The notes under the pieces are model-generated. The model was not told where the DNA came from and made no database searches. It saw nothing but the letters and a program-made list of their open reading frames with translations. DNA of 64,000 bases from contig JARGXX010000098.1 of assembly GCA_030374765.1 (NCBI GenBank), positions 620,001-684,000 of the forward strand. The letters are read 5' to 3'. Origin of the DNA: Agarophyton chilense (taxonomy: Eukaryota; Rhodophyta; Florideophyceae; Gracilariales; Gracilariaceae). The position numbers were made by a program, and so were the translations under genes. Positions 2,155 through 17,841 of this stretch are shown here, in pieces (the stretch's first letter is position 1; the number at the start of each line of letters is the position of its first letter).

Positions 2155-2214
2155 TGGGGTGTCATCAGTTCCGTCGGTAAGTTACCGACGGAACTGATGA
2201 CACCCCATTGGACG
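2148..2214. repeat. Perfect 33-bp palindrome at transposon/gypsy junction
   Basis: Positions 2148-2180 are gypsy coding sequence. Positions 2182-2214 are its exact reverse complement, separated by the single base at 2181. The transposon's left terminal repeat starts at 2213, so the last two palindrome bases overlap the element end. Copy B of the same gypsy (about 58380-58415) has no such inverted duplication, so it arose at or after insertion. Confidence 0.97.
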
Positions 2215-2235
2215 TCTGTGTTCTCGGAATGCTAG
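2213..2235 (+). repeat. Left terminal inverted repeat of transposon copy 1
   Basis: Pairs with 17819-17841, with 3 mismatches in 23 bases. The same sequence marks the start of copy 2 at 47325. CTAG at the inner end recurs just inside (2250-2265). Confidence 0.88.
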
Positions 2236-3129
2236 ATAAGTGTGCTAATAGCTAGTTTTGTAAATAAAAAGCCAAAAAATCTAAGAATTTTGCAGATTGC
2301 GCTGGTTCGGCACCTGAAAAAAATTTTTGGAAATAATAACTCCATGCATCTTAGTGTTTTGACCACTTAATGCAGTTTAATCTGCATTTGAAGTTTACTG
2401 GTCACTTTTGACCGCTCTAGGTCGAGATCCATACCAAGGCAGTCGTCAGTACCTTCTACCTCCTTACTGGCCCTTTTGCTTACTAGGATCCAGCGTTCCA
2501 CCGGGAGGGTATTTGAGGTTCAAAAATTCCACCACCGCATTCTCAACCTCGTCCACCTCCCCACTGCTCAAGTTCCTCACACCCGGCTGCCCCAGCACAC
2601 ACACATTCCCACCCTTCTTCTCCACATCCTTACCAACCCTCCTCTTCTTCAGCCGACTCTCTCCAACTCCTCCCCCTTTCCATTCCTCTCTCCCCTTCTT
2701 CATCCCAGCCAGCTCCCCGCGTCTCCCTGGCGTCACCGGCGACCCTTTCGCTCTCCCCCTCTCCTCTCCCACCTCCTTCAGATACTCTGAAACAACTGTT
2801 CAAAGAGCGGTATCATATCGTTACCTATGTGCAGCGTACAAGGAAGACTAGCAAACCGGAACGCCTTTACTAAGATCTTCAGTTAGCAAACACTCTTCAC
2901 ATCGACCTTAACGTTCACAATCACACTAACTACACTCTTCGGAGTTATAGACCCAGCTCTGCAATATACGCTTCCATTCAGATTCAACTCTCTCCTTCGG
3001 TTCATTCTCATAACGCTATTGAGGTGTCCTATCCAAAGCCTGCTACACATTCTCATAATCGAAGGAGGCGTACAATGTATAAACGCGTTATACGGGTCTC
3101 TACAAACTACGCCGTTCAATCCAAACTAG
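2236..3129. other. Left subterminal region, no confident gene except the small minus ORF
   Basis: AT-rich near the end, with CTAG motifs at about 2232 and 2252, then a C/T-rich stretch (2570-2770) that is coding-like only on the minus strand. Positions 2773-3129 contain no convincing ORF and may hold 5' exons or the promoter of the membrane-protein gene that follows. Confidence 0.5.
2464..2772 (-). CDS. Small charged unknown protein
   Basis: About 100 codons open on the minus strand. The first ATG is about 23 codons inside the open frame, so the start is uncertain (an upstream exon is possible). The N-terminal half is Gly/Lys/Arg/Glu-rich and probably disordered. The C-terminal third is more ordered (V-D-E-V-E-N-A-V-V-E-F-L-N-L). 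I do not recognise it. It is the outermost gene on the left arm of the transposon. Confidence 0.35.
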   Translation of the reverse strand: MGEERGRAKGSPVTPGRRGELAGMKKGREEWKGGGVGESRLKKRRVGKDVEKKGGNVCVLGQPGVRNLSSGEVDEVENAVVEFLNLKYPPGGTLDPSKQKGQ

Positions 3130-14062: not shown

Positions 14063-17000
14063 TCATGTGCCTTGGGAGGTATTATTATGGGTGCCACCCA
14101 GTGGTGGTGTTGTGCCACCAGTGGTGGTGTTGGAGAAGTAGGGCTTGGCAGTTGGGTCTCGGTAGAATCTATTGAGGTAAAATCGATGGAAGCGCCAGTG
14201 CAATCGAGGGGTGAAGGGGGGTGCGGGGTAGTTTTGGCGAAGTACATGAACGGGGCCGAGAGTGGAAGAGGATGGTACGAGGCCGAACCAGGGGGAGACG
14301 TTGTCGGAGTTGGAAGTGTTTGAGATAGGAAGGGGGTGGGCGGTGTGGTTTTGTTCGTCGTCTGTTGCCCATCGGAGGCAGATGCAATTGAGAGAGACAT
14401 CGACTTGATCCTGGGGTGGAACGAGTTCGAGGAACTGAACGAAGGCGAACTCGTTATGAGTGGAAGGGGAAGAAGGGGTGGTGAAGCGAAGAAGAGAGTT
14501 GAGCTTGCAGACCCAGGCGGTGGGAGTGGGGTTGGAGAAGCTGGAACCGGCAACGAGGATGTGGGAGAACTTTGGGGTTTTAGAGGGACCGAAGGAGGGA
14601 GCAGCAAAGATACGTTGAATGAGTGGGAGAGGGGGATCTTTGACGGCGAGCTCGTTTCGATCGGCGATGTAGTCGTCTAGGGTTGGGGTGAAGCCGCCGA
14701 CGACGTATGCAGAATTGACGAATGTGAGACGGGTTTGGCGGAGAGTGGGGGAGTCCTGGTTGAGAGCTAGTGTTTCGAGTGTGAGTGTGACGAAGGAGGG
14801 CAGTGCGAGGGTTCCAATCTGTGAGATGATGGCGATAGTGTCGGGGGAGAAGAGGTCCTGAAGGGAAGAGATTGTTGAGTGGGGGTTTGCTCGAAGGAAT
14901 TTGTGAGCGGTGATGAGATCGGAAAAGGAGGTGTGCTTGCCATCACGGACGAAACTTGGTTTGTGGGCTTGGAAGGGAGGAGGAGGGGCATGGGAGGATG
15001 AGGTGACTGAAGAATCAGCGGAGAGAGAAATCCAATTGTTGACGGCATCGGAGCGTTCGATGGCACGGATGGTTTCGTTATGCGCGGTGGGTCTGCGCTT
15101 GGAGGTTCGGGAGTAATGTGCTTTGAAGAGGGTATGGGCTTGTTCGAAGATGCCTGCATCGTTGAAGTGGAGACCCCCAAAGCGTCGAATGTCGTCTACG
15201 ATGTGATCGAGGAGGTTGAATTTGAGGGTGCCAAGGTTGGAGGTATGGTATGGACCGAGAACATCGACAGCTCTGTGCTTGAAGGAATGGATTTGGGAGG
15301 CGAGTTTGGCAAGACGAGAAGTGGTCCATTCGGGGACGGAGTAGTAGCACATGGAGGTGAGGAGGAGGTCTGTGTACTTGGAGAAGACGGTTGTGATGGG
15401 AGCGGAATTGGCTTTGTCACAGCAACGGTCGAAGAAGGCGCCGATGAAGGGGAAGACCATGTCGAGGGCGCGGTAGTCTTTTGCTTCTAGCATGCCACGG
15501 ACGCCGTCAGTTGTGAAGAAGCCGTTGAGGGACTGCCCGCTTTCGGGAAGTAGAGAAGTCGATGTGGAGGCCGGTAGCTGGGGAATGATTTTCGATGGCG
15601 GTGAGGATGAAGTTGGAGTGCTTGAGGATGGAGGTGCAGACGGAGTGGAAGGAAAGGCGGGAGTTTTTGGAGCTGATGGTGGTGAAGAGGTGTTCTGATC
15701 TGAGACGTTCGATGGCGGCGAGCTTGATGAGTTTAAAAACGCCGAGGTGGAAGTTGTGGAGGGGTTCGAAGGGGAAGATGTTGTATGGGGTGCGGAGGGG
15801 GTGATGTTGAAAAGGGGGTAAGACTCGAAGAGGGAGGGATATTTTGCGAGGGAGAGGGAGTGGAGTGCTTGGAGAGCTTGTTCCTTGAAGTTGCGCGAGA
15901 CTCTTGGCTTGCGGGCGAGGAGAGCTGCTTCGGAGTCCTTGAGGAGGGAGAAGTGTTTGTTGCGGTCTGCAAGGGTGAGGGGAAGAGATCGAGGGGGATG
16001 GGCGTGAGAGCGTTGGTGGAGTTGTGAGCGAGGGACAGAGCATCTGTGGCAGGGGTGCTGGGGGCGGGTGCCGTGGGAGATGGCGAGAAGATCCTTTGCC
16101 TCGGGAATGTCTGCGCAGTAGCTGGTGATGATGGGGTGGCATTGACGAAGAACGCCGTCTGCGTCGCGGAAGGGGAAACCGGGGAGGGCGGAAGAGAAGA
16201 GAGGTTGAAGGAGGGAGGAGGTGGTCTGCTGTATGAGTTCCATTTTTGTTTGGCGAGGGATGGAGGAGGAATGAGTGATGATATCTGGATCTGGAGAAGA
16301 AGTGATTGGGGTGAAGGAGGTGGGAAGATAGCCGAGGAATGTGAGACTGTCGGAGATGCATTTGCGGCGAAAGGAGTCGGAGAAGTTGAGAAGGGTGATG
16401 TGGAGGGGGTAGGAGGTGACGGAAGAAGATTTGAGAGAGGTAGAGGACTTGTCGGAGTAGATTTGGACGAGGCCGATGAAGGAGTCGATACCGGTGGAGT
16501 GAGGGAGATGCCAGACGATGTTATCTTTTGTGGACTGCATGATGGCGGTCTTGAGTGCGGGGACGACTTTTGAACCGAGGGTGGCTGCCATGGGGTGTGC
16601 GAAGGCGAGGGAGCCGGAGGCGGATGTTTGGGAGATGGGGTGGAAAAAGGTGTTCTTGAAGTGTGCGAGGGCGAGCTGTTCTTTGAGGACATGGATTGCG
16701 TCTTTCTGGAAGACGGTTGCGGAGAAGCGTTTGTGGGGATCGAAGATGGTCGAGGGGGCGAAAACAATGGACCTGATTCTCTGGTGGAAGAGGTCTGCCT
16801 GGAGCTCGAGGCATTGCTTTGCGGAGGAGACTGAGTTCTGGAATGTTGATTCGGAGAAGTGGGGATCATTAAGGAGAGTGATGAGTTCGTCAGCCTTTCG
16901 TTGTCCAAGCTTGGAGGCGATGGAGGAGATGTAGAGGACCATTTTCTCCAGGTGGGGGTTTTCGAGGGGGGGAGTGGAAGGAGGGAGGGGGGAGAGAGCG

Positions 17001-17326
17001 AGAGAGGAGGGGGAACCAAGAGGGGCAGTGGCGACGTGGATGGCGTCCTGGGTGTGGAGGGAGAGAGAGAGCTGGTCTTGGAGGTAGGAGTCATGGTGTG
17101 CGAGAGGGACGTTGTCGGAAGGGCGATGTCAGGGAGGAGGATGAGGGGGGAGTTGTGAGGTGGACTTGTGGCGTTTTGTGCGGGGGGGGAAGTTGGGTTC
17201 ATTTCCGCCAGGGGAGAGGAAGCGCTTGTTGGCGGAGAGGCGATGAGGGCACCTTCTCTGGTGCCGCTGGAGGGCGGGGATTTCTCGGGCGAAGAAGGAG
17301 CAACCGTTGAAGCATCAGGAAGGCAT
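14063..17326 (-). CDS. Plavaka/KDZ-type transposase (with internal breaks)
   Basis: An uninterrupted frame of 959 codons starts at 16942; homology to copy 2 extends the N-terminus back to an ATG at 17326. That extension has a Cys/His zinc finger (C-F-N-G-C … A-L-Q-R-H-Q-R-R-C) but contains two TGA codons (17315-17317 and 17129-17131). From the 16942 start, probable catalytic residues are D164 in I-Y-S-D-K, D278 in C-A-D-I-P-E and E600 in I-F-E-Q-A-H, within the D-I-R-R-F-G … H-F region typical of Plavaka. A C-H-R-C knuckle is at 298-301. The motif P-L-H-N-F-H-L-G-V-F-K, expected near residue 395, is in the -1 frame, entered near 15795 and left near 15545. The end carries a GG/TT repeat. It is convergent with ORF 2, 87 bp apart. 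Confidence 0.85.
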
Positions 17327-17841
17327 GGTGAGTGGAGGAGAGGTGGTGGGAAAGAAGTTGGTAGGGGGCGTAGACGGAGAGAGAGTATGGCGCACACAGG
17401 GCACGTGACAGGGGAGGGCGGTGGAGAATAATATAGAATGCAAGGCACGTGAGGTCTGCCAGGTCGGGCTGCGATTCTATTGCGATTGATATGAATGGTA
17501 CTAAATGTTCAATTTCTATTTTGAGGTCCATTTTGGGACCGGTTGTTTGTACTAATCTGTCAATCTAGAGCGCACAAAGATTGAATCTGCTCCTGCACCA
17601 CTTCTCTACTTTTACCTTTAAACTGCGGCGACAGAAAGATTCAGGCTAGTTTTACGTCCATCAAAACTAGAAAAACTGCAGATATGTGCTAGTTTTCCTT
17701 CCCATACAAACTAGCACTAATGAACGAATGAAAAAATTTTCGGAAATTAACACCTCCAAATTTGGATAAAATAACGGGTTTTTCGGTCATTTCAATTCGT
17801 CCTTTTTTGACCACTGAACTAGCCATCCGAGAACACTGACG
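17327..17841. other. Right subterminal region and right TIR of transposon copy 1
   Basis: No gene beyond the transposase start. Positions 17640-17725 carry at least four CTAG motifs (C-T-A-G-T-T-T type) in both orientations, like the left end. The terminal inverted repeat is 17819-17841. The gypsy sequence resumes at about 17842. Confidence 0.8.

Follow-up and report, generated by a model that had tools for sequence, protein, structure and literature searches.

Does a eukaryotic transposon write and erase its own epigenetic marks and, if so, by what address would it recognise its own copies? The question is raised by a locus in the window analysed here (the whole 64,000-nucleotide stretch of DNA), in which a reading of the sequence alone had described a transposase gene travelling with genes for modifying DNA and histones.

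Architecture and ends of the element

Positions 2213–17841 of the window form a single Plavaka-type (EnSpm-like) DNA transposon bounded by terminal inverted repeats, and this copy, itself broken, belongs to a family with about 60 members in a red-algal genome. The composition proposed from sequence, a bounded unit with a Plavaka transposase, an N6/N4 DNA methyltransferase, a SET domain, a ParB fold, a dioxygenase-like domain and a palindrome array, was confirmed in the window. Its ends and transposase region are as follows.

2148..2214, no strand: perfect inverted repeat of 33 bp at the left junction, where the flanking Gypsy target is copied in inverted orientation
2213..2235, + strand: left terminal inverted repeat, CGTCTGTGTTCTCGGAATGCTAG, with an identical terminus in copies C93, C88, C97 and C71
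11183..13567, + strand: 795-aa ORF adjoining the transposase gene; its matches in Pfam and PHROGs all fall below threshold (E 0.05)
14066..17128, − strand: Plavaka-type transposase, 1021-aa ORF, Plavaka domain at 15947–16480 (PF18759, 4.9e-20)
17819..17841, − strand: right terminal inverted repeat, CGTCAGTGTTCTCGG..., which recurs at other copies, in one with a mismatch

The 33-bp inverted repeat is confined to the junction of the window copy, which is flanked by AA on the right and changed by filler on the left; junctions are clean in four other copies. All five other copies with both ends read have intact ends and 2-bp target duplications (TA at C93, C97, C71 and C10; TG/CA at C88), the left terminus of C10 carrying one difference, located after the first 15 bases. 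The termini, CGTCA on the right and CGTCT on the left, are near but not identical to the CATCA..TGATG given for PlavakaB (PMC12730594), and the duplications of the family lie within the 2–3 bp expected of that group. Copy C10 is full length (about 18.8 kb, part of it unread) and holds both fusion genes described below, a match to the transposase and an additional, disrupted gene, the searched part of which gave no informative match in Pfam. Scanning the window for Rfam families and tRNAs likewise gave nothing informative.

The alternative label of a KDZ-type element was not borne out: the PF18759 match scores 72.4 bits against a Pfam cut-off of 26.3, and the target duplications are 2 bp long as opposed to the 8 bp stated for Zisupton (PMC12730594). 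The KDZ transposase profile PF18758 had zero matches genome-wide, yet the control genomes gave none either. The transposase has 45 matches at 87–100% (the 45 scored of 1697 candidates), and in some other copies its open frame extends to 1137–1166 aa. The 795-aa ORF has no match in NCBIfam, and a 49%-identical relic of it sits with another Plavaka relic in the window. Phycobilisome linker genes occur in the genome, and the host is therefore red-algal rather than fungal, the setting that the precedents had suggested; a glaucophyte is less likely.

Two divergent fusion genes and a palindrome array

Between the left end and the 795-aa ORF lie two fusion genes, both broken in the window copy, and an array that separates them.

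3622..7153, − strand: ParB-like/dioxygenase fusion gene, broken
3622..4638, − strand: 2OG/Fe(II)-dioxygenase-like domain, LHTDF ... GRGDVFHAG ... RYHMY
5384..6370 (approximate limits), − strand: predicted ParB-fold domain with an LIDGHHR motif, from the model of homologue P0001 and an alignment
7363..7737, no strand: palindrome array with three units of 128 bp each, TGTCGGCCGACA ... GACTTCATCGGG/CCCGATGAAGTC ... TGTCGGCCGACA, between the divergent fusion genes
7891..10993, + strand: DNA methyltransferase–SET fusion gene, broken in at least two places
9398..10111, + strand: N6_N4 DNA methyltransferase domain (Pfam PF01555), TDPPYNI then DLFAGTFST, the beta-class motif order
10469..10945, + strand: SET domain (Pfam PF00856, above cut-off)

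The ParB–dioxygenase gene is interrupted by an in-frame stop near 5381 and a frameshift near 4638 and lacks its C-terminal end at a deletion near 3642, whereas an intact copy encodes it as one 1247-aa ORF. Four database relatives (P0001–P0004) retain the fusion, and together with lineages A and B of this genome they make six sequences with pairwise identities of 27–53%. For the modelled P0001, ParB structures take ranks 1–14 in structure comparison, which assigns this part to the ParB/Srx fold; the listed rows cover the ParB part only, with no 2OG family among them. ParB proteins bind CTP through the motifs GERR and ENxxR. All six aligned sequences have GxHR, and the second motif is not recognisable in them. 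Profile comparison with Spo0J was weak (E 0.065 for the ParB-like region, 0.13 for a longer region, 0.89 for the dioxygenase region). The dioxygenase-like assignment comes from motifs: H-x-D...H...R is kept in five of the six sequences (lineages A and B and P0001–P0003), P0004 having lost the distal H and R. No Pfam family scored above cut-off for this part, the two matches among six members being at chance level (E 0.17 and 8.5), and in the P0001 model it lies mostly under pLDDT 50. Nothing informative was found for P0001 and P0002 among viral contigs or for P0002 among phages. A third dioxygenase lineage, heavily stopped, is also present in the genome.

The methyltransferase–SET gene has a frameshift near 8860 and an in-frame stop near 10391, and its part before 8320 is also not one open frame; in intact copies it is a single ORF of 1043 aa, and among the 20 top-scoring methyltransferase loci 12 retain an ORF of 900 aa or more. 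Its PF01555 match, with DPPY ahead of the FxGxG motif, places it in the beta class of N6/N4 methyltransferases, and the nearest PDB chain is DpnA (9.1e-10). Motif I reads FAGTF in lineage A (all 12 loci whose ORF reaches 900 aa) versus FAGTG in lineage B, a substitution that could make the cofactor bind less well. In lineage A the SET domain scores 26.0 and 23.4 bits against the PF00856 cut-off of 22.4; the lineage-B fragment, which ends inside the SET domain, gave no SET match. SET domains usually carry the motif NHxCxPN. It is absent here, with GGTINDPKY or GGIINDAQY in its place, while GEELFADY occurs in 10 of the 12 lineage-A ORFs. Genome-wide there are 116 PF01555 matches, which may include host genes. 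The 1043-aa protein had no database match at E ≤ 1e-3 among 7999 candidates; the lineage-B fragment gave nothing informative among genome contigs and, among phages, 25.8–35.8% identity over 10–24% of the query (10 of 17 records listed).

Copies, marks and competing readings

The claim that the transposon carries DNA- and histone-modification genes is supported across copies: both the ParB-like and dioxygenase genes adjoin the methyltransferase at 45 of 61 lineage-A places, and at 42 of the 61 there is, in addition, a Plavaka hit no more than 12 kb away. The modifier genes are thus not missing from all other copies, five of which have intact ends and duplications. Capture of host genes by a single nested insertion is rejected because some 60 places have conserved neighbours. 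The lineages share about 40% identity with motifs retained, and in both the two fusion genes diverge from a palindrome array, whose sequence differs between them (about eight units of 773 bp in lineage B).

We propose that the ParB domain would bind the array, as ParB does at parS, making it the address of the cassette on every copy, enzyme-less ones included. The methyltransferase–SET protein would place 6mA or 4mC on element DNA and methylate nearby histones, joining two layers in one protein; the tethered dioxygenase, brought to the array by the ParB part, would oxidise or remove a mark. The outcome would be an on/off chromatin state set by the element and governing its transcription or excision. 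We give this reading, in which writing and removal of the element's own marks is an extrapolation from domain content, an even chance of being right. The mark removed would probably be the cassette's own, since an exon-by-exon search of the genome yielded no match to a C5 DNA methyltransferase (a first look gave no candidate; controls were detected in 10 of 14). For the same reason erasure of host 5mC is unlikely and was rejected as the main purpose, which weakens the earlier suggestion of escape from host silencing in so far as silencing means 5mC.

A Plavaka hit lies beside 55 of the 61 lineage-A methyltransferase places, but a listed one lies within 15 kb of only one of 30 lineage-B places (123 of 235 Plavaka candidates scored). 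We offer, tentatively, a broader version: a self-contained, sequence-addressed epigenetic cassette not tied to any one transposase, in which ParB–dioxygenase at a parS-like array would alter or erase marks and methyltransferase–SET would write them on DNA and histones, a writer–eraser switch for a genome in which no 5mC machinery was recognised.

The array bears on a rather doubtful alternative, that the accessory genes are cargo or serve general host manipulation, the dioxygenase and SET domains acting on chromatin or RNA throughout the genome and the array being only a bidirectional promoter. Its position exactly between two divergent genes suits this view, and the AG-type TET enzymes of Agaricomycotina have been speculated to act without target specificity (PMC12730594). 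Arrays, however, also occur at other copies and near Plavaka hits lacking the enzymes: at 10 of 13 catalogued array-only sites a Plavaka hit lies within 6.2 kb while the surrounding 40 kb on either side hold no lineage-A methyltransferase, which a mere promoter leaves unexplained (the other three have no nearby Plavaka hit), and one of the genes has a predicted ParB fold. Because it is kept in Plavaka copies without enzymes, the array looks like a cis-acting address; a pure promoter is disfavoured, though the array could simply act as a promoter shared by the two genes or in replication or recombination.

Lineage B gives the clue to a partition- or telomere-like role, in which the ParB–array pair would serve segregation or chromosome-end maintenance and the enzymes would maintain its chromatin. 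Among places on contigs of known length, 21 of 25 in lineage B are no more than 20 kb from a contig end versus 8 of 55 in lineage A, one B copy lies 4–14 kb from the telomere-repeat start of contig C95, and the lineage-B array is long. Near-identical repeats also break assemblies, however, so the bias may be an artefact; the ends of contigs C16, C98 and C103 are themselves lineage-B array sequence, and lineage A is dispersed. The TTAGGG telomere pattern was absent. We consider this role improbable. Equally hard to credit is a vestigial cassette, in which bacterial-type genes acquired in a single ancient capture would now merely hitch-hike and serve no function: stops in many copies, the motif loss in P0004 and the decayed third dioxygenase lineage fit it, but intact 1043-aa and 1247-aa ORFs exist, motifs are kept across deep divergence, and pooled dN/dS among copies (0.54–0.56, a moderate value that mixes selection with decay) is below 1.

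If the self-marking proposal is true, a eukaryotic transposon would carry enzymes that write and erase unusual DNA marks, together with a histone writer and a bacterial-type DNA address, in a lineage seemingly without 5mC. It would become directly testable whether mobile elements create a chromatin state of their own, beyond evading that of the host, and two new fused enzymes (methyltransferase–SET and ParB–dioxygenase) and a candidate eukaryotic parS-like site would be added.

Known relatives

Giant EnSpm/CACTA families of red algae are described from Chondrus crispus, at 16–20 kb with 4–5 ORFs (Kojima, 2013, cited in PMC6431247), and also from Bostrychia (Petroll, 2025, cited in PMC12477816). 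The full-length copy, at about 18.8 kb, falls within that description, and host, EnSpm-like type and several accessory ORFs agree; beyond these, the likeness is one of size and ORF number. For the Plavaka giant repeats of Amoebidium, the genes named in PMC11244446 are tyrosine recombinases, with no mention there of the present cassette. TET+ Plavaka elements of fungi have ends that those of the present family approach, and share a short duplication and a dioxygenase(-like) gene on board (Kojima, 2025, PMC12730594), but their hosts are fungal and that account does not mention ParB.

Bdelloid N4CMT likewise joins a bacterial-type N6_N4 methyltransferase to a chromatin domain in a eukaryote without C5 methyltransferases (none being detected here); it is, however, host-encoded rather than transposon-borne, has a chromodomain reader where the present protein has a SET writer, and labels transposons for silencing (PMC8885841). 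With bacterial and archaeal ParB–parS systems (pNOB8-like, Myxococcus, Noc, KorB) the element shares a predicted ParB fold beside a palindrome array, but here the setting is eukaryotic and the protein continues into a dioxygenase-like domain. Sola1-1_Ec32 of Ectocarpus is also a giant algal transposon with ParB and amino-methyltransferase domains, encoding a 1104-aa ParB-like and N4C/N6A methyltransferase protein proposed to bind and modify its own element (PMC12477816). There, ParB is fused to the methyltransferase in a Sola-1 transposon for which that source names no SET or dioxygenase, whereas the present element has ParB–dioxygenase-like and methyltransferase–SET fusions with a palindrome array between them.

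The window element and its host

Inverted repeats starting CGTC(T/A)GTGTTCTCGG enclose the unit at 2213-17841 of the window, and the Plavaka-like transposase, DNA methyltransferase (N6_N4) and SET protein that the sequence-only reading had recognised within it each exceed the curated Pfam cut-off; the remaining ORFs gave sub-threshold Pfam matches or nothing. Both fusion genes, methyltransferase-SET and ParB-dioxygenase, are disrupted in this copy. What flanks it reads as one interrupted Gypsy retrotransposon, with an integrase (PF00665) on the left and, as the sole domain match on the right, a sub-threshold aspartyl-protease RVP (14.0 bits, cut-off 20.7). 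A short inverted copy of the target, joined to the left terminus at CG microhomology, resembles a scar of fold-back repair.

Features of the window and of the palindrome arrays
Window 2148-2214: 33-bp perfect inverted copy of target Gypsy sequence, between flank and left terminus
Window 48053-52547: decayed second Plavaka transposase, 44-57% identical in pieces
Lineage-A array: 128-bp units of nested dyads
Lineage-B array (one copy, contig C32): about eight 773-bp units, palindromes differing from those of lineage A

Beside the second Plavaka relic lies a companion-ORF relic (49%) in the tail-to-tail order of the main element; no methyltransferase, ParB-like or dioxygenase gene occurs there among the genome matches listed. 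GC skew is very strong (to ~0.55) at 2001-17500, the element, and 47001-53000, the second relic, and the transposase coding strand is C-rich. A COG5 gene and a membrane transporter lie elsewhere in the window.

Phycobilisome linkers mark a eukaryote as a red alga, with a glaucophyte the less likely alternative. A fungal framing is wrong, because the window's genome (79.76 Mb, 135 contigs) contains 13 matches to the linker family PF00427, each exceeding the cut-off. Seven of them lie on C39, apparently the plastid, and the others are spread singly over six further contigs. Five contigs (C88, C10, C16, C68, C80) carry both a PF00427 match and copies of the element.

Copies, lineages and ends

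As a protein query, the window methyltransferase gave 85 matches in the genome: lineage A accounts for 61 places (identity 78-100%, mostly 91-96%), lineage B for 16 (40-41%), and the remaining eight are extra pieces of lineage-A places; the ParB-like and dioxygenase ORFs gave at least 75 and at least 120. Intact lineage-A copies encode methyltransferase and SET in a single ORF of 1043 aa, and the ParB-like and dioxygenase-like parts in one of 1247 aa. By match coordinates, with pieces at one place merged by hand, the lineage-A methyltransferase has a Plavaka match within 12 kb at 55 of 61 places, a ParB-like gene within 9 kb at 47 and a dioxygenase gene within 10 kb at 50. The latter two are both nearby at 45, and the genome-wide search for the same gene set, which had been proposed from sequence, recovered all four genes together at 42. 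A third, heavily stopped dioxygenase lineage (~37-41% identity; C25:15680, C16:834494, C7:752841, C103:122540 and others) suggests old, repeated waves of the cassette. One database relative of the ParB-dioxygenase fusion, P0004, lacks the distal histidine and arginine of the catalytic pattern and is probably an inactive version.

Both ends were read in five copies besides the window's, with target duplications of TA at C93, C97, C71 and C10 and TG/CA at C88; TA also precedes right ends at C117, C2, C86 and C128. The C10 copy is ~18.8 kb long (918,487 to about 937,296) and carries, left of the dioxygenase gene, an extra gene missing from the window copy (L098 and L042, C10:918000-922400). Its GRGRIGT motif is dinucleotide-binding-like, part of it matched no family in a Pfam search, and a short duplication disrupts it in C10. 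Among the 20 best-scoring dioxygenase loci (L041-L060), five, one of them the window copy, have a short left part in common; the other 15 have no window sequence left of ~2780 and presumably belong to the longer C10 type, for which five left ends besides C10 were read in part.

Lineage-B places were assigned by hand from profile coverage and frame length of the methyltransferase matches. Of the 25 on contigs of known length, 21 are no more than 20 kb from a contig end (lineage A, 8 of 55); of 30 lineage-B places, just one has a listed Plavaka match within 15 kb. Several contigs terminate in lineage-B array sequence, so assembly breaks may cause part of this bias. One copy lies near the telomere-repeat start of C95. 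At the start of C1 (44-12523), irregular TTTAGGGG-type telomere-like repeats form three blocks with spacings of ~4.5 and 5.6 kb, a pattern suggestive of element insertions into telomeric repeats.

The palindrome array and a possible mechanism

The array sits between the two divergent fusion genes in both lineages; the layout is kept while the array sequence has changed. Thirteen array-only sites were catalogued among the array matches listed. At ten of them a Plavaka match lies no more than 6.2 kb away and lineage-A methyltransferase matches are absent out to 40 kb; the other three have no Plavaka match within 14 kb. Element sequence adjoins the array at two array-only loci, and a third shows retroelement sequence only, in inverted arrangement. 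At L077:536-1644 (C3:205000-207200) the array, without element genes, lies inside inverted retroelement sequence, the whole locus being a large palindrome. Because the lineage-A array also occurs without enzymes, the best explanation is a cis-acting site recognised in trans.

Anatomy, copies, fusions and motif conservation are direct observations, and a ParB fold is predicted by modelling for a ParB-dioxygenase homologue. We propose that the ParB domain would bind the array, that methyltransferase-SET would mark DNA and histones jointly, and that the dioxygenase may act on a mark made by the cassette itself. This third step is proposed partly because the C5 methyltransferase family PF00145 had no match in the genome. 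This absence parallels bdelloid rotifers, animals that, according to passages of PMC8885841, are without C5 methyltransferases and possess an N4-methyltransferase of bacterial type linked to a chromodomain.

Comparison with described systems

Across titles, abstract openings and passages of the papers listed by the searches, the full combination was not found described; the Bostrychia genome paper, the most relevant one, may overlap. The parts have precedents in passages of earlier reports: red algal EnSpm families of 16-20 kb with 4-5 ORFs (PMC6431247), giant gene clusters flanked by Plavaka in Amoebidium (PMC11244446), and SET genes in oomycete HarbingerS and MuDR transposons (PMC12730594). 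Among fungal Plavaka elements, passages of the last source portray some that carry a TET gene and no further modifying enzymes.
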